NCBI GenBank assembly: GCA_935421135.1
Contig: OW285187.1
Coordinates: 30,995,818-31,059,817 of the forward strand
DNA from: Bugulina stolonifera
Lineage: Eukaryota > Bryozoa > Gymnolaemata > Cheilostomatida > Bugulidae
Direction: 5' to 3'
Length of the DNA stretch: 64,000 nt
Position numbers and translations under genes: made by a program. Each line of letters opens with the position of its first letter. Positions within the stretch are counted from its first letter, which is position 1. The notes under the pieces were generated by a model that saw nothing but the letters and a program-made list of their open reading frames with translations, was not told the DNA's origin and did not search any database. This document shows, one piece after another, positions 826-60,283 of this stretch.

Positions 826-2187
826 TCAGACCATTGCCACGCCCACTTCGTTAGCAGTCTGACTATCACTGACGACAGATGTGTTACGAGTGCAATCGTC
901 GTTCAGTAGTGGTGTGGCAGAAGGATGTAGATACCGTTCTTTAGTCTTATCATTCGTCTCATGCTTGAGGTTAATTGAATTGACGGAATAGTTGCTGCAA
1001 GTGTTGGATCGTTTCTGCACCGAAGTGGTTTGTCTGAGTGAAGTCAGCATTGTTGAAACTCTACGGACACTTGAATGATTGCGTATGTTTGAAATGTTGC
1101 AGCAAAATATGGAGATGAATGTCTTACGGAATTGTCTGCTCATGATTGTATATAGAATAAAGTTACTGGTGAAAGCCGCAATTGTTAAGAGGTCTACAAT
1201 ATCTCTGGTAAATTCGGAATATAATTCCATACGTTGATTGCCTCTTGCGTATAAGAGAAATATTCCTTCTGGAAGCTCAATAACCAGGAACACTATTACG
1301 ACTGCAAGAAGCATAGCTGTAGTTCTATTGTGTTCACGGTGTCTCTTTGAATCTTCGACGTTGCCTCTCTTCAAAAGTTTTATTCTGTTCTGCTCCGCTG
1401 ACCTCATTTGATAGATAAGTGGAATGGTGAGGATGGTAAGTAAAGCAGCGGGAATAACTTTGGACAATGAGCCATACAAATAAGCATTGAAATCAAAATT
1501 CCTCTTTCCAGTTACAGTATATAGAGTCATTACGATGGTCGAGTTCTTTTCAGGATCACAGATAACATCTGTATACATTTTAACGTGCATATCAAGCCAC
1601 GAAGGAATGGAAACGAGTGAATTAGCAATGACGAGTACAAGGGAAGAGATTTTAGCATTCCTCATCGTCAAGTATTGTTTGCCATTAACCAGACTAAAGG
1701 TTAGCCATCTGAAACTGGCTACGGCAATAGTATGCCAAACAGCAATAGAGTGGAGCAATATGGTGAATCCTCTGACGAAATATAGAAGCTTAGCATCTAT
1801 TTCATCTTCAACAAAATAAGGGTCCATCTCTGGTTTATACTTGATTATAAAGAAGATCACTGTCATTGGTAAATATATCACACTCAGCAGCATTTCAGCG
1901 ATGGCTATAATTGTCATCAAAAAATTGACTGGGGAAGTTGCCATCTTCTTTCGAGACAATACAATGGCATTAGCAAGATTCGTTAAAAATACAACAATGC
2001 AGATGATGGTGGAAAGATATCCATGAATTGATCTGTATTCAGCTATTGCTTTGTAAAATCTTTTATCGGCGTCACTGAATTGATCAAAATTAGCCGGTGG
2101 ATCCCAACATCCAGTCTTATTTGTAATAAACAACATCGTCAAATTCCCAACAGGCATTGTCATGTTCTCTGCCGTGACAATGTCCAT
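826..2187 (-). CDS. Rhodopsin-class peptide GPCR (FMRFamide/sex-peptide-receptor/srw-like)
   Basis: Single-exon 453-aa seven-transmembrane receptor. The N-terminus carries three N-glycosylation sequons (NMT, NLT, NKT). TM1 begins near residue 57 and contains the Asn of NLANAIVLSRKKM. TM3 ends in SFRW where most rhodopsin-class receptors have DRY; aromatic-Arg-aromatic variants are typical of the srw/FMRFamide-receptor group. TM6 has the family signature FLVIELPEGI and TM7 has NFILYTIMSRQFRKTF, which substitutes for NPxxY and leads into a short helix 8. A Cys pair (FCC) follows and could be palmitoylated. The roughly 90-residue cytoplasmic tail is Ser/Thr-rich. By family, it should be a plasma-membrane receptor for an amidated neuropeptide signalling through G proteins. 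The ligand cannot be deduced. The start is the first Met of the open frame; an upstream non-coding exon is possible. Confidence 0.88.
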   Translation of the reverse strand: MDIVTAENMTMPVGNLTMLFITNKTGCWDPPANFDQFSDADKRFYKAIAEYRSIHGYLSTIICIVVFLTNLANAIVLSRKKMATSPVNFLMTIIAIAEMLLSVIYLPMTVIFFIIKYKPEMDPYFVEDEIDAKLLYFVRGFTILLHSIAVWHTIAVASFRWLTFSLVNGKQYLTMRNAKISSLVLVIANSLVSIPSWLDMHVKMYTDVICDPEKNSTIVMTLYTVTGKRNFDFNAYLYGSLSKVIPAALLTILTIPLIYQMRSAEQNRIKLLKRGNVEDSKRHREHNRTTAMLLAVVIVFLVIELPEGIFLLYARGNQRMELYSEFTRDIVDLLTIAAFTSNFILYTIMSRQFRKTFISIFCCNISNIRNHSSVRRVSTMLTSLRQTTSVQKRSNTCSNYSVNSINLKHETNDKTKERYLHPSATPLLNDDCTRNTSVVSDSQTANEVGVAMV

Positions 2188-5100
2188 ATTGGGTCTGAAT
2201 TCTCACCAAATATTCAACATCTGAAAAAGAAGTTTGCATAATGAGACAGTTTAGATGAATGATCAATAACATTCAGTAATGTGCCCAATAGAACGATTCC
2301 AGGTTTGAGACAATTTAGCCTTAAAGATGAATGCATCATGTGTGTGGACTACATGTACAATACACAGGAACATTAGCTTAGACATCACCTACATGTAGGT
2401 ACAATGTACGTAACAATGTGAATAACCGACTAAATTTGTGCGCACCATAGTGACCTTTCAGGTCATGCTGCTATTTGCCCCGATTACAAACACATATACC
2501 CAAATCTAACAAATAAAATATTTATTGTGTTCTTGAATCAGGAAAACACAAGAAGCTACGTTGCACATTGCAATGAGATATTCTATTAGGCCAACATAAA
2601 TAAAACATTGTGGAGTGAGCTCAATTATGATTCCTCATTGATAAAAAACGGACTCCATTAAATATGCGTTTATCCCTCAAAACTGGCTGCAACAAACACA
2701 TTGCATGCTGACGTGATTTTTCTCTAGAGAAACTTTAATTGTATCTATGAGCTAATTTAAACATTAGTTAATATGAAGTTGATTAAACAACTAAATATAT
2801 TTGCACAACACGGGAAATATCGCTTAACAAGATAAAAGAGATGAATATGTCAAAGGTTGATCAATATGTTACAATCATGAATGCTATTTATGTCTTTACT
2901 ATTTCCCAAACAGTGCATAACATGTTGTGTGTGAGCAGAAGGGCTCTAAATTTTATAGATGTGTAGAGGTCATGGTTGTATTGTATATTACAGTGGAAAG
3001 GCAACTCTTGTAGTAGAACTACTTTTACACCTACTGTTAGACCCATATTCTTATCATCATTGCACTGTTTTATGTTTAGAAAATTGTAACACTGATGGGT
3101 TTTAAAATTATGTTTACCAATAGTGTACGTGTTGTACATGTATATGATCAATCTACAGTTACACACAAAGAAAATTTCTGTCTGCAGGCTTACCAAATCT
3201 CCGCCCCCCCCCCCCCAATTCTGCATGAGACTCTCTGACTTTCAACTCAAACTTTGGTACCCCATCCAATCCGAATTGGACATCTCTTACCCAACAGTGT
3301 TAAACTTCCTTGATTTTCACCAGTGGGACTTCGAAGCCTTCCCGCTGGTATGTATCAGTAGACAGCGAGGCCTGTCTATGTGTATCATTCAATATACATG
3401 ATGATATGTGAATGTAATAGCAAATTAGTTATCACACGATTGCCTGTAATTGCCCTTCAGAACTAGGACTAAGTTGATATTACCATATTCCCAATGGTAG
3501 TATACTGCCCTAGGCCTCCGTTATGTACTGACCATTACTTATAGCACGGACATGGTACCTTGTGATACATTCTATATTATATGAAGTCAAGTCTACATGT
3601 GCAAGTAACAACATTACAATATACAATGCTGTAACCTCTGATGACAGTAAATCTGTCATTTCAAATAGTACAGTTGCCATCATACCGACTGCTTCATAAC
3701 TATACTAGAATTCTCTTTATAGTAGAATTATTCTGTTCGTGTGACGTGATGTTGAGCTACTTTACATAGACATTTTGTTTTTGTGTTCTATTTTGGTCGT
3801 GGTCAACAGTATGGTCAATGAAATACATAGAATGGATCTCCGTGTTATATTTGAAGGGAAGTAATTTCATTCTGGATGTTTTCACCATTCACTACTTCAC
3901 TTGACTGAGTATAACACATTTTGCATTTCTTAGTTTGAAGTAGGCAGTTTTTGGATTGCTGCAAAATTTATCCAAAGCAATTTTATAACAAATTTTATAT
4001 AAAAAGTGCTGGGATAACACATGACACTGGTTTGTGTTAACTTCAGCTGTAAACCCCCAGGTTCAATTATATACAACCCACTCTTGAGATGAGGTATTGG
4101 GGTAATAAACAACACACACACATTTACACTAACAGAAAATAATGTCACCAAACAAAGTACATCCTTACAAAATACTCAAACAAACTCGATGACCGCAATA
4201 TGTGACAGATTTTCTGCTTTTGCTGTTTCCCATGTGTATTTGAAAATGCCAGAGGTTCAACTCATAACTGTGCAGCTCAACCTGGATATAGCTACAGTGT
4301 TCAAATAAAACCCTATACAGTACTGCAACATGTAGACTTATACAGTACCTTAATATGTGGACATATTATACTAGATTTAAATAAAATATTTACAGCTAAC
4401 TTCTATCAATTTTTGATTTTATTTTAGTCTCATAGTATAATTCAACTATTTAATTTACAACGCTGCTCTTTTAGCTCTAATTGCCCAATCTGAACAGCAC
4501 TAAAGTAGCCTGTTAACAGGCCTACAGGTATTTCTGAGAAACCATAGTACACTCAGATATTCCAAAGGAATATTATTTTGTGTACCAGTTCAAGGATGTG
4601 ATGCTTATCTAGGTTGATCTTTTGTAATTACTTACTAATTCTACCCTTTTGGTTTGAGTTATTTTAAATGTCACGTGAATAAGGTGATTATATAACTGGT
4701 TGTTTTTCCTCCTCCTCCTCAATTCAGTACAGTAACATATACAAGGGGAATGTCAAACAATTACCTCACTCAAGTGGTTGCTATACTGTATACTCCTGCT
4801 TATCATACTGTTGCTTCTCATAAAAAGTTTATTTTAAAAAGTTATATTTGCTTGTTTGCCTTGTATCTAATTTATATGAGAGATCGTTGTTGCTGTAATG
4901 CTGTATGTCTTAAATGTAAAACACGGACCAAGAATAGAAAACATGGGTGTTAAATTTAAAATACTTTAACTAAACCGATGTTCTTTTACTTCTTTACAGC
5001 TAATGACAACGGAATGGCATTAGATTCTCTTGGTGCTCTGTTTATATAATACAGTGAAAAGCTAGTAAACCTCTTGGCTTTCACTCAAGCTAAAATTTCA

Positions 5101-50822: not shown

Positions 50823-50828
50823 CTCACA

Positions 50829-52046
50829 AGTAGTATAGTCAGTGCACTTCTAGACAGACACGCACTCATTGACCCCTGTTTTCAACCAATCACAAGCCGG
50901 TATTTCCGATTTCAACCAATCACAGAAGAGCACAAAAATTTTGCACACGACCTTGCCAAGGTCACCCCAAAATCCCCCCTTCTGATTGGTCGAAAAAACA
51001 TTTGCACACTTGACCCCGAACCCGGCCACGACCCCTTCCCTCCCTCCTTCCCGCCCTCCTCCCCCTCCCCCACCTCCCACTCCTCCCCCACTCCCCGCCA
51101 CCGCCCTCGTCCCGTCCGCGCCACCGCCGTCGCCGCCGCCACCACCGCCGCCCTCACCGCCGCCGTCGCCGCCGCCACCACCGCCCTCACCACCGCCGCC
51201 GCCACCACCGCCACCGCCGCCACCGCCGCCACCGCCGCCACCACCACCGCCGCCGCCGCCGCCACCGCCGCCATCACCGTCATCACCGCCACCCCTCCTC
51301 CACCGCCGCCCACCCTCCCCCCGCAACCCCCACTCACCCGAACGACCGATCGTTTGAGGCGGTCAAGCCGCGTCCGCCCACGTTGCGTGCGGCGCCGACC
51401 GTACACGTGGAGGCGACGCCGGTGCCCCGTATCCACCGGGCCAAGCGACTAGGCAGCGGCCCGCCGCTTCTCCCGCGCCTCCCCACTCGGAAAGCTTGTG
51501 ATCTAAACGAGCGAATTCGGCTGCGCTTCGCCTACAGCTCTCATTAGCGATAAGAAGAAGTACTACGGAAGGCTTGGTTTCAGCGATAAGAAGAAGTACT
51601 ACGGAAGGCTTGGTTTATGATGTGCATTGCATTGTTAATAAAGAAATGTGTAAAGTCTTGGCTATAAATATACTGATGGGAAGAAGGGTTGTTTCTATGA
51701 TATACATTGTATTGACAACAAAGAACCGTGTGCATGTGTTAAGTCAGCATATATAATGCATTAAATAAACTTTTCGCAACGGTGACAATAGAATGAATAA
51801 AAGATTGTGTACACGTGTTAAAACACAATTGAAAGAATAAAAGACACATATTTAAAAGAGTATGTCATATCTGTTATTAGCAAGGAAGTTTGTGTGCATG
51901 TGTTAAGACAGTGTATATTATACATTAGATAAACTTTTCACAATAGTAGCAATAGAATAAATAAAAGGTTGTGTGCATGTGTTAAGTCAGCATTATGTAA
52001 TACATTAAATACACTTTTTACAACACTAGCAATAGAATGAATAAAA
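50829..52046 (+). repeat. Left terminal inverted repeat
   Basis: 1,218 bp, nearly identical to the reverse complement of 58667-59849. The outer 200 bp hold two copies of TTTCAACCAATCAC (CCAAT at 50886 and 50916) and an inverted CCAAT (ATTGG near 50984). 51.0-51.5 kb is extremely GC-rich, with long runs of CCG/CCA. The inner part has CTATAAATA near 51663 followed by AT-rich sequence. It has one difference in structure from the right TIR: a 36-bp tandem duplication (GCGATAAGAAGAAGTACTAC...) around 51547-51620. Open frames across the CCG tract encode homopolymers and are not genes. Confidence 0.95.
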
Positions 52047-52400
52047 AAGCTATATATGTAAAGGAGTATGTCATAGCTATTGTTAGCAAGAAAAGTCTGT
52101 GTACATGTGTTAAGGGCAGCATATATAATACATTAAATAAACTTTTCACAATAGTAGCAATAGAATAAATAAAGATTGTGTACACATGTTGAAATATCAT
52201 TATGATATGATTTAAACACAATTGAAAGAATAAAAGACACATATGTAAAGGAGTATGTCATAGCTATTATAGCAAGAGACAGCTGTGTGCATGTGTTAAG
52301 TCAGCACATATAATACATTAAATAAACTTTTTACAATAGTAGCAATAGAATGTATAAAAGGATGTATATAAGTGTTAGAATACCATTATATAATAATTTA
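51700..52400. repeat. Subterminal tandem repeats
   Basis: About five degenerate copies of a 120-200-bp unit containing GTGCATGTGTTAAGTCAGCA, a TAATACATTAAATAAACTTTT stretch and CAATAGTAGCAATAGAAT. The outer copies fall inside the TIR and so are also present inverted at 58.67-59.0 kb; the inner ones are only on the left. Confidence 0.85.
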
Positions 52401-52534
52401 AAAAAAATAATTTAAAAAAAAATCCTCACTGATTTGCTATCACATAAAAGTAAATGCAGAGGGAATGAGACACTACAGAGAGAGAGTGGGAGAAAGAGAG
52501 TGGGAGAAAAAAGAAAAAAACTAAAGAAAGATGA

Positions 52535-55464
52535 TTAGAGCTTTTCTTCACTGACTCGAAGGTAAGCTTCAGCTTGTGCTATTACCTCTCTGTGATACCC
52601 ATTCTTCTTGAGATGAAAAATGGCAGAGCGGTAATACTCAACTGCTCCAGAGAAAAAAGATGGGGGGAGTCTGCTTCGATCAACTAGTTCACTGACAGTC
52701 TCCTCTTCTATGGGGGTAATAGTGATGGGGTATTAAGATTGAGTTCAGACGAACAAGAAGGAGATTGCGAGCTAAGTAGCTCTCTTCCAAAAGAAAGAGA
52801 GGGTGAAGCTAAAGAAAAGGAAGAAGTGGTAGTAGTAGAAGTAGTAATAAAAGTAGGTATTGAAAGACTAGTAATTGTATTATTAGATCTTCCAAGAGAA
52901 AAAGAGGGTGAATCTAAGAAAAAGAGTGGAGCAGGTGAAGAGGTGGGAGTAGAAGTAGGTATCGAAACAGTGGTAACTGTATCATCAGATCTTTCAGGAG
53001 AATGAGAGGGTGAATGTGAAGAAAAGAGTGGGGGAAAAGAAGCAGTAGAAGGAGTGGTAGTAATGGTAGTAGTAATAGTAGTAGTTGTAAGAGAAGAAGT
53101 AGAGGTGGAAATGTCTTCATTAGTAAGAGAGTTACTGATGGAAGAAGCATCTGAATCAAAATGATGGTGAGAAGGGAGAGGAAATTGTGAAGAGCACACC
53201 CCAGACTTTACAGATCTTTCAGGAGAATGAGAGGGTGAATGTGAAGAAAAGAGTGGAGGAAAAGAAGTAGTAGAAGGAGTAGTAGTAATAGTAGTAGTTG
53301 TAAGAGAAGAAGTAGAGATGGTAATGTCTCCATTAGTAAGAGAGTTACTGATGGAAGAAGCATCTGAATCAAAATGATGGTGAGAAGGGAGAGGAAATTG
53401 TGAAGAGCACACCCCAGACTTTAAAGAGAATGGAGTAGTAGACATCCCCTTAAAGAAGGGAGGGTATACTACCCCACCAACAGTTGTTGGAGTGTATGCG
53501 GGGATGAGTATTTTGGAAGGTGGAGAGTGACCAGTGACCCTTTGCAAAAAGGATATGGTCTTTTTTAATGAATAGATATCGGTTAGAAAGCGTGTGTTGA
53601 ATGAGATGTGTCGGTGACAGGGCTTTCCATCAATATGATGATTAGATGGAAAGTTGTAGTGTCTATTCATCCCCTCATCATCTACTGTTATGTGATAGCA
53701 AAAACAGATTCGGAGCAAAAAATGTTGTTGAATGTGGACACCTCGTCGGTGCCCAACATTCTTATTGCATAAAAAGCAGGGGTCGTCCGATTCAAATGGC
53801 TTTGTTAGTGACATCTCCAGTCTTCTTTTTGTCTCATCACTAACAAAGACATAGAATCTTAGACCCCCCTTACATATCGGCTTTGCTCTGAGTCCTAAAA
53901 AAGAAAGAAAATAACAAGAATAAGTGAGAGAGAACATATGACTTACTTGTAAATCAGAAAAAAAAAAAAAAAAAAAGATTCTAAATAGACAAATAGATAG
54001 CAGATCATTCTTACCTATATCCATCCCATCTACTCCCCCACAGTCCTCAAATAAAGCAATTTCTTCTTCACCTAGTTCTGTTTCTTTTTCATTCTATAAT
54101 GTAAATAAAATGTGCAGAGACTAATTAACAAACTACATTAACATAGTCATTTGTAATATATGGTTTTTGAAGAATTTGATGAAAAAACTAGCACTCTAAG
54201 TACTAAGCAAGTCTACTAAAGCCTGTCTATTTTCTCACATAAAGAGAAATACATCATTAACATAAGAAAACCAGTTGTGATTTATGTTATATTTTTTCAC
54301 ATAGGAAAAGAAAAAAAAGTGTCTTATTGATAAAAATAATACATAAGAAAGAAAGTGCAATACTTATAATAAAAATATCACTAATCTTTAACATCTTAGA
54401 CATGGTAAGAGACTTATAGAATTAGAGAAAATCATACTATGGCTAATTAACATCTGGTTTTAAAAGGAAGCAGTCTCTTTTGACATTCTAGACATGGTAA
54501 GAGGCTTATAGTATAAAAAAGTACATCATCATTATGTGTAACTAACATGTACTTCTGAAGAAATGTCAGTAATCTCCTTTGACATCTTAGAAACCCAACA
54601 CCATAGTGGATTGAAGGTGTAATGCATGTGTGAACAAATAAGATAATAGACTAACCATTTCTGGAGATGGGATTCTTTTCCTTGAGATTCGTCTTCTGTC
54701 TTCCGAATCGTACGTAATCATATACTTCATACCTTTTTTTGATGTTTTAATTTTTCTTATATATTTCTTTCTTTGATATTTAGATGTAGAAGCCTGTAAG
54801 TATATGTAGAGTAATAAACATATACCAAAGCATGAGTCAAGTAGATGGAACTACTAATGCAACATAGTTACTAAAGAAAGAAACACTACAGTGGTATAAC
54901 CACTTATAATAAAGTTTCTAAGCTCTGGTCACACTGATTGTAGTATAGACAGAGCAGATCTCTACACACATGCTCTCATGTTGAGAATCAAAACAGTTTA
55001 ATATATAAGCTTACAACGTTTTTAAGCCCTGGACATACCAAAGGAGAATTTTACCACTACTAAAATATAATTAGCCCCAATGTTAACTCAAATGAGTAAG
55101 TTCATATTAAAATACATATTAAAATAGCTAGGATGTACTAGTATAGCCAGTACAAGTGGTAATAAACTGTTTTGATACTTATTACACTACTAGTGGTATA
55201 ACTACTCATATTGAAAATAAATCTCACCACATATAAAGCTTCTAAGCTCCGGTCACACAAATTGTAGTATAGACAGATCAGATCTCTACATACTTGCTCT
55301 CATGTTGAGAATCAAAACAGTTTAATACATAAGCTTACAAAGTTTCTAAGCTCTGGTCATACCAAGGGAGTATTATATCACTACTAAAATAGAATTAGTC
55401 CCAATGTTAACTCAAATGAGTAAATTCATACTAAAATACATATTAAAATAAGTTTACTCACCAT
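52535..55464 (-). CDS. Element-encoded basic/Cys-rich protein, unrecognised
   Basis: Proposed exons, 5' to 3': 55462-55464 (ATG only), 54656-54793, 54015-54093, 53478-53894, 52535-52707. They join in phase to 269 aa. Visible parts: a strongly basic N-terminus (KYQRKKYIRKIKTSKKG, then RRRISRKRIP) that should act as a nuclear localisation/DNA-contacting segment; an acidic stretch (LGEEEIALFEDCGG); a Cys/His cluster (DDPCFLCNKNVGHRRGVH, then CFCYH and CHRH) that may bind zinc; and a helical C-terminus (SGAVEYYRSAIFHLKKNGYH). I do not recognise the family, and see no DDE/DDD or polymerase motif. The donor at 53477 is only moderate. If intron 4 is retained, the protein instead continues into a Ser/Thr-rich repeat and stops at 52708. 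It is divergent from the ankyrin gene across the word array, suggesting shared control. Confidence 0.6.
52987..53424. repeat. Tandem duplication of about 215 bp
   Basis: Two near-identical copies (52987-53211 and 53212-53424) containing agatctttcaggagaatgag and (tag/tgg)n tracts. They lie in the proposed last intron of the minus-strand element gene, or in its Ser/Thr-rich alternative reading frame. Copies differ mainly in the length of the triplet tract. Confidence 0.9.
54886..55452. repeat. Direct duplication of about 260 bp in intron 1
   Basis: Copy 1 (about 54886-55138) and copy 2 (about 55185-55452) share ordered blocks such as TTGTAGTATAGACAGA, CTCTCATGTTGAGAATC and CCCAATGTTAACTCAAATG. 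Both sit in the first intron of the minus-strand element gene, immediately after its ATG-only exon. Confidence 0.85.
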
Positions 55465-55632
55465 ATTAATTGTTGAGTGATGTTGATTCAGAGAAATTAG
55501 TAAATATCCACAGAGTTGCAAGTCTTTACTAGGTGGTTGAGTGGTAATGATAAAAATCCTCTCTCACGCTTGCTTTTATGGAAATCTCTGTCCAATCAGA
55601 AGTGATTTGGCTTTTTTTAGTCTGATTTATTG

Positions 55633-57064
55633 CATCCCGATGTGATTCGATGTAACCCGATGTAACCCGATGTAACCCGATGTAACCCGATGTAACCCGA
55701 TGTGTTTTTGACCTCCCCGATGTGTTTTCGACCTCCCCCGATGTGATTCGATGTGTCTCGATGTGTTTTCGACCTCCCCCGATGTGATTCGATGTGTCCC
55801 GATGTGTTTTCGACCTTCCCCGATGTGACCCGATGTAACCCGATGTAACCCGATGTAACCCGATGTGTTTTTTACCTCCCCCGATGTGTTTTTGACCTTC
55901 CCCGATGTGATTCGATGTGTCTCGATGTGTTTTCGACCTTCCCCGATGTAACCCGATGTAACCCGATGTGTTTTTGACCTCCCCCGATGTGATTCGATGT
56001 GTCCCGATGTGTTTTCGACCTCCCCCGATGTGATTCGATGTGTTTTCGACCTCCCTCGATGTGATTCGATGTGTTTTCGACCTCCCTCGATGTGATTCGA
56101 TGTGTTTTCGACCTTCCCCGATGTGATTCGATGTGTTTTCGACCTCCCCCGATGTGATTCGATGTGTTTTCGACCTCCCCCGATGTGATTCGATGTGTCC
56201 CGATGTGTTTTCGACCTCCCCCGATGTGATTCGATGTGTCCCGATGTGTTTTCGACCTCCCCCGATGTGTTTTCGACCTCCCCCGATGTGATTTGATGTG
56301 TTTTCGACCTCCCCCGATGTGTTTTCGACCTCCCCCGATGTGATTCGATGTGTTTTCGACCTCCCCCGATGTGATTCGATGTGACCCGATGTGTTTTCGA
56401 CCTCCCCCGATGTGTTTTCGACCTCCCCCGATGTGATTCGATGTGTTTTCGACCTCCCCCGATGTGATTCGATGTGTTTTCGACCTCCCCCGATGTGTCC
56501 CGATGTGTTTTCGACCTCCCCCGATGTGATTCGATGTGTCCCGATGTGTTTTCGACCTCCCCCGATGTGATTCGATGTGTCCCGATGTGTTTTCGACCTC
56601 CCCCGATGTGTTTTCGACCTCCCCCGATGTGATTTGATGTGTTTTCGACCTCCCCCGATGTGTTTTCGACCTCCCCCGATGTGATTCGATGTGTTTTCGA
56701 CCTCCCCCGATGTGATTCGATGTGACCCGATGTGTTTTCGACCTCCCCCGATGTGATTCGATGTGTTTTCGACCTCCCCCGATGTGATTCGATGTGGCCC
56801 GATGTGTTTTCGACCTCCCCCGATGTGTTTTCGTCCTCCCCCGATGTGATTCGATGTGTCCCGATGTGTTTTCGACCTCCCCCGATGTGATTCGATGTGT
56901 CCCAATGTGTTTTCGACCTCCCTCGATGTGTCCCGATGTGTTTTCGACCTCCCCCAATGTGTTTTCGACCTTTCCCGATGTGTTTCGATGTTTCCCTATG
57001 TGTTTTTGATCTTTCCCGATGTGATTCGATGCACTCTGATGTGTTTCCAATGCGCTCCAATGTA
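55633..57064. repeat. 1.4-kb array of about 10-bp GATGTG words
   Basis: The array is built almost entirely from a few words joined head to tail: CGATGTGATT, CGATGTGTCC, CGATGTAACC and a double-length CGATGTGTTTTCGACCTCCCC. The AACC word occurs mainly at the left end (55645-55985). Minus-strand frames of 392-477 codons are open in all three phases because the words contain no stop on that strand; they are not genes. The array lies exactly between the two divergent element genes, each with a CCAAT box near its side (55590 and 57076). Confidence 0.95.
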
Positions 57065-57075
57065 TATGCTGTTAG

Positions 57076-57116
57076 CCAATCAGCTTTATTTGTATCTTTT
57101 TATTCACTATATAAAG
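57076..57116 (+). promoter_or_regulatory. CCAAT and TATA boxes of the ankyrin gene
   Basis: CCAAT at 57076-57080 and TATATAAAG at 57108-57116, about 90 bp before the ATG at 57202. Spacing is that of a core promoter, with transcription expected to start near 57140. Confidence 0.7.
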
Positions 57117-57201
57117 AGAGGTGGAAACAGTAGTTTAGTTAACTCTTTCTAGCTCCAGTCTGTTCTTAATAGAAATTAAAGAAGGTTAGCACACAAATAG
57201 C

Positions 57202-58649
57202 ATGGAAAGTGGATATGGATCAGGCGAGTATAGCAACAAGCTAATGACTCCTATAAACCAAGAGCTGATGAAGGTAACAGTGGAAAGATGTACAGAACAA
57301 AGCAAGTATGAGAATAAAGACTTATTTGAGGGGGTGTCTGAGCTCTTTCTCCAAAAAAGCTTACCTCTAGACTGGCAGAAATGGGATCCTTTAACCGATA
57401 TTCGTAATAAGCTTAGCACACAGTTACTAGAAGAAATTCGTTCTATCTTTTGGGAGCAAGATGGAAAAGATGAAGAGTTGTAAGTTATACATATTTCCAA
57501 CTATTTTTTTTTTTTTTTTGTTTCGTATTGTCTTTTATGATCAAAATAAAATATGATAGACAAATTTCCCATATAACTACCTCTCAACTATGTGAAAAAC
57601 AAATATCATGCTAAATGATGTAGTGAGGTACTAGAAGCAGCCCGAGATAGAGATGAGAGAGCCGTTGCACTCGCGGTATTTGTTGCGAGGAGTCACAAAC
57701 AACTGAATACAAAGAATGCGAATCGGCAGACGTTACTTCACCTAACTGTACAGTCTTATTGTTCGGATTCACTAATTCGCCTCATCATCACAAGGGGAGC
57801 GGATGGAGCAATAGCCGATGCTTGGGGTTAGTGTTTTATAGTACCAATGTTTGCATGCATTGCTTGTTAAAAAATAAAGTGTTGCAAAACTTGTAACAAT
57901 TCGGTACTTATCTATATTGCTAATGTTTATTTGGAAGGTGACACCCCCCTTCACATTGCTGCACATCTGGGTAGAGCTAAGGTTATTCATGCTCTAACCA
58001 CAAGTTTGACCAGAGCAGAAATAAAGCATCCATACTTCAGAGTTCCTTACAAATCACTTCCCCAAGACAATGTACAGAGCTACAATCATGATGGAAGGAG
58101 TGTAGTCCACCTCATTGTTGAAACAGCGCATAGCAGCAAGCATAGAGAGGCACTAAAGGTACTAAAAAAAAATACTCGGGCTGACTTAGATATGAGGGTA
58201 AGTGAATACATTACAGTGGAATAAAAGTAGAGTAGATCGAATTGATAAGTTAGATGGGGAGTTTAATTCTATTCTCTTGTTTGATATTATAGCGAATGGG
58301 AGATGGATACGCCCCATCTCACATTGCCATAGAGAATGAAGACTACGAATGTCTACATACATGTCTAAGATTGGGAGCTGATTCTGAAGTTCGTAACTAC
58401 AAAAGTGAAACCCCTCAACAACTAGCTCACCTCTACAAATCAGCAGATATGGTAAGGGACCAACAACATAAAGAAGTATAGATTTCTTGCTTTGTCCACC
58501 TTGAGTGATATTCGTCTGAGTAAAAAACTAAAATCATCTTGTAGGTAAGACTGTGTCAAGAGTTTGGAGCTGGAGCATATCAATTAGAGTATGCTGAGAC
58601 CGAAGTCGTAAACATTATAGCTCCTACGACTTCTGATGAAGATGAGTAA
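57202..58649 (+). CDS. IkB-like ankyrin-repeat protein carried by the element
   Basis: Five exons: 57202-57479, 57624-57826, 57938-58197, 58293-58451, 58545-58649. They join in phase to 334 aa. After a 93-residue N-terminus come five to six ankyrin repeats: RQTLLHLTVQ, GDTPLHIAAHLGRAKVIHAL (161-180), DGRSVVHLIVE, GYAPSHIAIENEDYECLHTC (252-271) with GADSEVRNY, and ETPQQLAHLY. The spacing, the lengthened loop before repeat DGRSVVHL and the final PxQL-type repeat followed by an acidic end (TTSDEDE) follow the IkB/Cactus plan. By family, such proteins hold NF-kB in the cytoplasm; here that is inference. Residues 2-7, ESGYGS, resemble the DSGxxS phospho-degron of IkB. The stop codon is 18 bp from the right TIR, so the 3' UTR lies in the repeat. 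Alternative: a generic ankyrin protein of unknown role. Confidence 0.78.
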
Positions 58650-58666
58650 TAAGTACCTAAACTCCT

Positions 58667-59849
58667 CTTTTATTTATTCTATTGCTACTATTGTGAAAAG
58701 TTTATTTAATATATTACATAATGCTGACTTAACACATGCACACAACCTTTTATTTATTCTATTGCTACTATTGTGAAAAGTTTATCTAATGTATAATATA
58801 CACTGTCTTAACACATGCACACAGACTTTCTTGCTAATAATAGATATGACATACTCTTTTAAATATGTGTCTTTTATTCTTTCAATTGTGTTTTAACACG
58901 TGTACACAATCTTTTATTCATTCTATTGTCACCATTGCGAAAAGTTTATTTAATGTATTATATATGCTGACTTAACACATGTACACGGTTCTTTATTGTC
59001 AATACAATGTATATCATAGAACCAACCCTTCTTCCCATCAGTGTATTTATAGCCAAGACTTTACACATTTCTTTATTAACAATGCAATGCACATCATAAA
59101 CCAAGCCTTCCGTAGTACTTCTTCTTATCGCTAATGAGAGCTGTAGGCGAAGCGCAGCCGAATTCGCTCGTTTAGATCACAAGCTTTCCGAGTGGGGAGG
59201 CGCGGGAGAAGCGGCGGGCCGCTGCCTAGTCGCTTGGCCCGGTGGATACGGGGCACCGGCGTCGCCTCCACGTGTACGGTCGGCGCCGCACGCAACGTGG
59301 GCGGACGCGGCTTGACCGCCTCAAACGATCGGTCGTTCGGGTGAGTGGGGGTTGCGGGGGGAGGGTGGGCGGCGGTGGAGGAGGGGTGGCGGTGATGACG
59401 GTGATGGCGGCGGCGGCGGTGGCGGCGGCGGCGGCGGTGGTGGTGGCGGCGGTGGCGGCGGCGGTGGTGGGGGCGGTGGCGGCGGCGGTGGTGAGGGCGG
59501 TGGTGGCGGCGGCGACGGCGGCGGTGAGGGCGGCGGTGGCGGCGGCGACGGCGGTGGCGCGGACGGGACGAGGGCGGTGGCGGGGAGTGGGGGAGGAGTG
59601 GGAGGTGGGGGAGGGGGAGGAGGGCGGGAAGGAGGGAGGGAAGGGGTCGTGGCCGGGTTCGGGGTCAAGTGTGCAAATGTTTTTTCGACCAATCAGAAGG
59701 GGGGATTTTGGGGTGACCTTGGCAAGGTCGTGTGCAAAATTTTTGTGCTCTTCTGTGATTGGTTGAAATCGGAAATACCGGCTTGTGATTGGTTGAAAAC
59801 AGGGGTCAATGAGTGCGTGTCTGTCTAGAAGTGCACTGACTATACTACT
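58667..59849 (-). repeat. Right terminal inverted repeat
   Basis: 1,183 bp, inverted copy of 50829-52046 without the left TIR's 36-bp duplication and with small length differences in the CGG/CCG tract (about 59.39-59.57 kb) and scattered substitutions in the AT-rich inner half. Homopolymeric Gly/Ala/Pro open frames across it are not genes. Confidence 0.95.
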
Positions 59850-59996
59850 CTCACATAACACTACAGTAATTTAAATATGTCAATATCTATCCATAACTAT
59901 TATGTGAAAGGACCTAACTATTTATATACTGTAGATTACCAATTGAGACTTGCTTATAACTATGTAGAACTTGCCTTTTTTATACCTGTGTTATGT

Positions 59997-60227
59997 TACA
60001 TTCACACTGCAGTTTATACCAACTACTAGCGGCCAACGCTAACCACAATGTGGTTAACTATTACTATACTATAGCTAGCACGTGTTAGTTAGCGGCGAAG
60101 GTCAAGGTTCAGCATGTTGAACTTGTTGACCCCTACCGCTCACTGGAGCATGTCACTATATAATGTAGTTATGGTTAGCGTTGGTCGCTCGCCGCTAGTA
60201 GTTGGTATAAACGGCAATGTGAATGTA
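59997..60227. mobile_element. Tc1/mariner-type MITE
   Basis: About 227 bp with terminal inverted repeats of roughly 45-50 bp: CATTCACACTGCAGTTTATA at the left and its near reverse complement ending GGTATAAACGGCAATGTGAATG at the right. Both contain ACCAACTACTAGCGG and CCAACGCTAACC (or complements). Flanked by TA on both sides. No coding capacity. It lies only about 145 bp outside the right end of the 9-kb element. Confidence 0.85.
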
Positions 60228-60283
60228 GCATAATGAGGTCAAGGTTGCAGAATTGGTTACAATTAATTTTGCATATGATTAAT

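Follow-up and report, generated by a model that had tools for sequence, protein, structure and literature searches.

A capsid-bearing, Polinton-like element class and its likely same-ended partner carrying a bryozoan-derived IkB gene in Bugulina stolonifera

Organization of the window element

The stretch of the Bugulina stolonifera genome analysed here (the window; 64,000 nucleotides, positions 30,995,818 to 31,059,817 of contig OW285187.1, assembly GCA_935421135.1) contains an element of 9,021 bp at window positions 50829-59849 that carries a gene for an IkB-type ankyrin protein. Inverted repeats of about 1.2 kb (96%) bound the element. They consist of two ungapped blocks, of 752 nt (50829-51580 / 59098-59849) and 479 nt (51582-52060 / 58654-59132), each 96% complementary. 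The left end starts with AGTAGTATAGTCAG and the right end closes with CTATACTACT, and the element is flanked by an exact 6-bp duplication, CTCACA. A 6-bp duplication and AG ends are Polinton traits. Repeats of this length, ends running from AG to CT and the CTCACA duplication had been described in an earlier sequence-only reading of this DNA, and all are confirmed here.

Two intron-bearing genes lie between the repeats, the IkB gene and a gene on the opposite strand, termed gene 2, both pointing outward from a CCGATGTG-type array (Table 1). Within the array, the motif CGATGTG occurs 79 times on the plus strand, compared with three other matches in the window. The IkB gene is intact, with five exons encoding 334 amino acids and GT-AG boundaries at all four introns. 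Its ankyrin domain matches Ank_2 (2.4e-12) and related Pfam families; the query for the Pfam and database searches was a 336-amino-acid splice that contained two wrong residues at a faulty exon join. No integrase, polymerase or capsid gene was found in the window element, where a Pfam search of the IkB exons and the gene 2 exon returned ankyrin repeats only and the remaining long frames are array repeats. The frame and Pfam results agree with the sequence-only reading, which saw two intron-bearing genes, one of them with an IkB-type ankyrin plan, and no transposase or polymerase.

Table 1 Features of the element in window coordinates.
Feature	Position	Strand	Remark
Target-site duplication CTCACA, left copy	50823..50828	.	
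Left terminal inverted repeat, two ungapped blocks	50829..52060	+	96% complementary to right repeat
Gene 2 exon 4, long, Ser/Thr-rich, with Cys/His-rich N-terminal part	52708..53894	-	predicted by eye
Gene 2 exon 3	54015..54093	-	predicted; splice motifs
Gene 2 exon 2, basic, 46 codons	54656..54793	-	predicted; splice motifs
Gene 2 start codon, splice donor directly after	55462..55464	-	predicted by eye
CCGATGTG-type minisatellite, separating the divergent gene pair	55636..57010	.	
TATA-box-like TATAAAG, upstream of the ankyrin gene	57110..57116	+	
IkB gene exon 1	57202..57479	+	
IkB gene exon 2	57624..57826	+	
IkB gene exon 3	57938..58197	+	
IkB gene exon 4	58293..58451	+	
IkB gene exon 5, with stop codon	58545..58649	+	
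Right terminal inverted repeat	58654..59849	-	
Target-site duplication CTCACA, right copy	59850..59855	.	

Two classes of elements with common ends

The outermost 50 bases of the element match the genome 721 times (360 forward, 361 reverse; reversed-pattern control, 0). This and all following 50-mer counts were taken at up to three mismatches. The first 29 bases have 550 exact matches. An exact 6-bp duplication was observed in all 13 elements for which both ends were available, as were AG...CT ends. Further copies with different flanks and 6-bp duplications, which the earlier reading had proposed to seek with the terminal repeat, are therefore present. At three elements (C1:14200014, 14298523 and 14359530; L026-L030, L063), the duplication, GCCATG, and the 10-bp flanks are the same, which suggests that the surrounding DNA was duplicated after insertion (segmental duplication) and leaves 11 of the 13 elements independent. 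The centre of the duplication is a pyrimidine-purine (YR) step at 484 of the 550 exact ends; in the window's host part, YR accounts for 26.4% of dinucleotide steps.

The elements fall into two classes with common ends and different interiors, namely class B, the window type, and class A, the capsid type. Pieces of two class A elements align to the window element in the outer repeats and one short adjoining stretch only; in the left repeat, the segments 50829-51552 and 51699-51877 are common to both classes. Genome-wide, a capsid 50-mer has 198 matches, an IkB 50-mer 148 and a gene 2 50-mer 140, all lower bounds for old copies. C1 has 28 elements in which both 50-base ends are perfect. The capsid gene is found in 16 of them, the IkB gene in 11 and neither in one; one of the 11 IkB assignments rests on a separate match, and four capsid places and one IkB place lie outside the 28. 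Median lengths on C1 are 10.7 kb for class A (n=16) and 9.6 kb for class B (n=11), and near-identical copies are present in each class. Both classes insert mostly at YR centres: 26 of 29 exact-end elements on C1 belong to the YR list, which takes in 11 of 11 class B and 14 of 17 class A elements, and the three outside it are class A.

Arrays of the CCGATGTG type occur in both classes, with varied length, beside predicted gene starts (window 55636-57010; L064:3784-4031; L071), and may represent a regulatory or replication site. One of them lies in an 8.6-kb element (L071, C1:17537468-17546033) that shares these ends, is flanked by a 6-bp duplication and is devoid of capsid and IkB markers; the 2.3 kb read from it are mostly array and repeat.

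Class A carries a Polinton-like gene set

In the complete class A copy at C1:14200014-14210583 (10.6 kb), the longest frames comprise 461 amino acids (capsid), 381 amino acids (no assignment) and 359 amino acids (integrase). The integrase matches rve (PF00665, 1.3e-11) together with a chromodomain (Chromo, 1.2e-6), and the packaging ATPase is of the Pox_A32 type (1.9e-6, above the family cut-off). The capsid protein is predicted to adopt a double jelly-roll, as judged from an AlphaFold2 model (pLDDT 84). The modelled sequence was that of P0001, a database entry that matches the class A capsid at 100% identity across 99% of its length. The best matches of this model among solved structures are the capsids of PBCV-1 and iridovirus, and those of Sputnik and mavirus match it too. 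Against a library of viral models, the top E-value belongs to an uncharacterised Cotesia bracovirus protein, 25% identical and with a TM-score of only 0.37, which we take to be Maverick-derived. The capsid sequence retrieved nothing credible from the PDB, and viral contigs searched with the capsid sequence, the capsid alignment and the integrase yielded no confirmed relative. A probable cysteine protease, with a weak match to protease S273R (E 0.4) and no Pfam match, may be of the adenovirus type. Frames of a size fitting a penton or minor capsid protein have no Pfam or PHROG match.

No polymerase is recognisable in the class A copy read whole, nor in the window element. Larger elements were considered as a hiding place for a type B DNA polymerase (PolB), and this candidate was rejected for a 17-kb class A copy, which contains a nested hAT transposon (L062:2005-4681; frames with DUF4371 and a hAT dimerisation domain). 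Of four copies of 12-15 kb, 3-kb probes were read, all of which match class A or B. Given the shared ends, the virion and integrase genes and the lack of a recognisable polymerase, class A looks like a Polinton without PolB. The sequence-only reading had taken the window element for a non-autonomous or novel element with Polinton-like ends, and class A, which has the same ends, is the likely helper. Longer relatives, which it had proposed to look for, are present with an integrase, at about 10.7 kb, and were not found with a polymerase.

Elsewhere in the genome, PolB (PF03175) has 11 matches, five of them strong. Of the matches on C1 and C2, none falls between listed class A or class B ends; the matches on C4, C7 and C10 were left out of this check. 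The low-copy locus at C1:4274000-4290900 (L072, L073) encodes PolB, its own rve integrase and further Polinton-like frames. Its DNA has no similarity to class A or class B in the stretch read, which stops short of the locus ends. We regard it as a candidate supplier of replication for both classes.

The IkB gene is of bryozoan origin

The element IkB has its top named database matches in Bugula neritina, to cact (70% over 87%), and in Watersipora, to an NF-kB inhibitor alpha-like protein (59% over 85%). A separate host IkB gene was located at C5:15180327-15180725; the comparison with it rests on 1.46 kb read, with the gene ends outside. The three ankyrin exons are 76-78% identical between host and element proteins, and exon 1 is 48% identical. 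All three comparable introns agree in position and phase, which indicates that DNA was captured rather than a spliced transcript. The element protein starts at the Met of the host ...SASMESGYGSG..., upstream of which the host frame extends, and its N terminus is thus shorter than that of the host gene; its C-terminal tail is shorter than that of B. neritina. The element protein starts with MESGYGS, where the host has SMESGYGS and B. neritina DSGFMS; ESGYGS resembles the IkB degron motif. An LHLTV string and a one-residue insertion are common to element and host and absent in B. neritina and Watersipora, although another protein, P0044, also has an insertion there.

In a tree composed without Bcl-3 and viral ankyrins, the set of element, host, B. 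neritina, Watersipora and two further proteins is supported at 98/100, with long branches for the outgroup and P0046. Support for the pairing of element and host is just 70/75, and the alternatives of host with B. neritina (p-AU 0.13) and element with B. neritina (p-AU 0.35) are not rejected. Sequence comparison shows that the element gene goes back to a bryozoan IkB gene that was captured together with its introns. Of the earlier suggestion of a captured host NF-kB inhibitor or an exapted viral one, the first part stands. The protein groups with bryozoan IkB proteins and not with unrelated ankyrins, and an insect virus or vankyrin as its source is ruled out, since the nearest named relatives are bryozoan in both the database search and the tree.

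An old capture and a young burst

The IkB frame is intact in 28 of 30 copies (the window copy and 29 others) and interrupted by a stop in two, and the splice sites of all four introns are kept in all 30. Median pairwise identity is 99.3% and the lowest 98.7%, in a set that consists of the best-scoring matches to the window copy and is biased to intact, similar copies; stops are present in some copies beyond these. The median identity of the best-matching copies points to a young burst, in line with the earlier description of the element as young.

Between element and host, dN is 0.15 and dS 1.76 over 206 ankyrin codons, and 0.22 and 2.17 over 299 codons, values that are indicative only, with dS near saturation. 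The resulting dN/dS of about 0.1 makes the capture look old and shows the protein to have been kept by selection since its split from the C5 gene, because a neutral element branch would have pushed dN far higher. An old capture with selection is well supported by these comparisons, and selection on IkB during the burst is only suggested by the 17 synonymous, 26 missense and 2 nonsense changes counted among the young copies (neutral ratio 2.73). For gene 2, capsid, integrase and ATPase, the nonsynonymous/synonymous ratio between copies lies below the neutral value in seven of eight pairwise comparisons, which use a neutral value borrowed from the IkB gene and involve small numbers and overlapping pairs. 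Two gap positions occur in another capsid copy, outside the exceptional pair discussed below.

Gene 2 and neighbouring features

The minus-strand gene 2 is a real gene, as a 50-mer from it matches the genome 140 times. It has no homologue and no credible Pfam or PDB match, and the fold prediction for its core is unusable (pLDDT 32).

Just right of the element, at window 59991-60233, lies a 48-bp inverted repeat (90%) whose arms are 147 nt apart, resembling a miniature inverted-repeat transposable element. On the minus strand at window 829-2202, a long open frame encodes an Srw-type seven-transmembrane receptor (Pfam 1.2e-35).

A helper-dependent partner and its alternatives

We consider it likely that class B, with its bryozoan-derived IkB gene, is the non-autonomous partner of a Polinton-like, capsid-bearing class A in B. 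stolonifera. The ends, the duplication length and the target preference are shared, and the integrase is found in class A only, so that one integrase for both classes is the simplest reading. The class A integrase would recognise the common ends and insert both classes alike, and class B DNA might be packaged in class A capsids. Replication would depend on a polymerase acting in trans, with either the host itself or the genome's low-copy PolB-bearing Polintons as its source. The element IkB, with an N terminus shorter than that of the host protein, would damp host NF-kB signalling while the elements multiply, and its product would, by analogy, probably hold back Rel proteins as vankyrins do in insects. 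NF-kB suppression, mobilisation in trans and shared packaging are inferred. The sequence-only reading is thereby confirmed in what it observed and supported in how it interpreted the element. What it did not contain is that two classes of elements make up the system, one of them with capsid and integrase genes and no recognisable polymerase.

Several observations weigh against this interpretation. No polymerase source was tied to the class A and class B ends. The degron-like ESGYGS motif is kept, and the element protein may therefore still be degradable. The element protein is 68.5% identical to the host protein, compared with 64.6% between element and B. neritina and 66.3% between host and B. 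neritina, a slight margin. In the young IkB family, the nonsynonymous deficit is not significant (one-sided p 0.07, two-sided 0.13), and the exception among the eight pairwise comparisons is a capsid pair with two synonymous and eight nonsynonymous changes. The window copy of gene 2 is broken, its long exon leaving the frame near the 3' end relative to copy L067.

The same data can be read in other ways. Classes A and B might be two obligate segments of one bipartite Polinton-like virus, with virion and integration genes in A and host-control genes (IkB and gene 2) in B, an infection requiring both. The shared ends, the similar abundance (198 versus 148 matches), the similar median lengths on C1, the near-identical copies in both classes and the long-term constraint on IkB would fit such a virus. 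A helper and its satellite, however, predict the same pattern, there is no sign that A needs B, and a replicase is found in neither, so we hold this explanation as a tentative one. With equal reserve, one could describe the system as the first bipartite Polinton-type virus, in which a polymerase-less capsid and integrase segment and an immune-suppression segment with a long-captured, selected host IkB would share ends, integrase and capsids, borrow a replicase and account for about 350 recent insertions in one bryozoan genome. That class B is a plain satellite or non-autonomous derivative, whose genes ride along as passengers without benefit to the elements, seems rather unlikely. Non-autonomous elements are common, the window gene 2 is broken and selection within the IkB family is only suggestive, but an element-host dN/dS of about 0.1 at near-saturated dS is hard to reach with a neutral element branch.

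That the PolB-bearing Polintons, and not class A, supply the integrase (and polymerase) that mobilises both classes appears improbable. Such loci exist (11 PF03175 matches, five strong), and the one that was read has its own rve integrase; its DNA, however, lacks similarity to A and B over the part read, the ends not being reached, and class A carries an intact integrase inside these shared ends. That the region is just an ordinary ancestral locus, or an artefact of assembly, can practically be dismissed. No point in favour of this reading was found, and it would require identical flanks at most copies, whereas 11 of 13 elements are independent, exact 6-bp duplications occur with different flanks, the matches are dispersed over the chromosomes and a separate host IkB gene lies on C5.

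Relation to known systems and implications

Polintons, vankyrins and gene-capturing non-autonomous elements are already known kinds. Like class A, Polintons or Mavericks (polintoviruses, adintoviruses) encode an rve integrase, a packaging ATPase, a double-jelly-roll capsid and, in class A probably, a cysteine protease, and they share long terminal inverted repeats, the 6-bp duplication and AG ends with both classes. Typical Polintons are 15-20 kb long and encode pPolB (PMC4028283), whereas class A measures about 10.7 kb and encodes no recognisable polymerase, and class B is without integrase, ATPase, capsid and protease genes. Polydnavirus vankyrins, which impede NF-kB signalling in insects (PMC3757122), resemble the class B gene as mobile or viral IkB homologues in several copies. 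The class B IkB differs in its host phylum, its bryozoan origin, its retained introns and ESGYGS motif and its location on an integrating element; vankyrins are IkB homologues without regulated-degradation sequences, whereas the element IkB keeps a degron-like motif, though its termini are shorter.

Satellite viruses and virophages are likewise dependent elements using the proteins of a helper, as we suppose for class B; unlike them, the A and B partners share long terminal repeats and both exceed 100 copies in an animal genome. Segmented bidnaviruses resemble the pair in having several DNA segments, and the group has an adintovirus-kind type B polymerase (PMC11071296), but they possess a parvovirus-type capsid and PolB and are not Polinton-type capsid elements. 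Pack-MULEs and other gene-capturing non-autonomous transposons carry host gene sequence between their ends and are mobilised in trans (PMC6431247), as class B would be. They differ in that class B carries a complete intron-bearing gene with long-term constraint and that its likely helper bears a capsid. In titles, abstract beginnings and some passages, we found no account of a capsid element that lacks a polymerase and has an IkB-bearing partner with the same ends, and no paper joining both Polinton and Maverick with bryozoa or with interferon regulatory factor; most subscription papers lay outside these searches.

Automatic annotation of such a genome can miscount well over 100 mobile copies as NF-kB inhibitor genes. 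Virus-like transposons rarely reveal the function of their cargo; in the present system it is a central regulator of immunity, open to testing, and the same genome holds a host relative of the donor gene and the likely integrase donor. Two questions are thereby made testable, namely whether Polinton-like elements still act as viruses that have to fight immunity in animal hosts, and whether such elements can be divided between partners, like segmented viruses and satellites.

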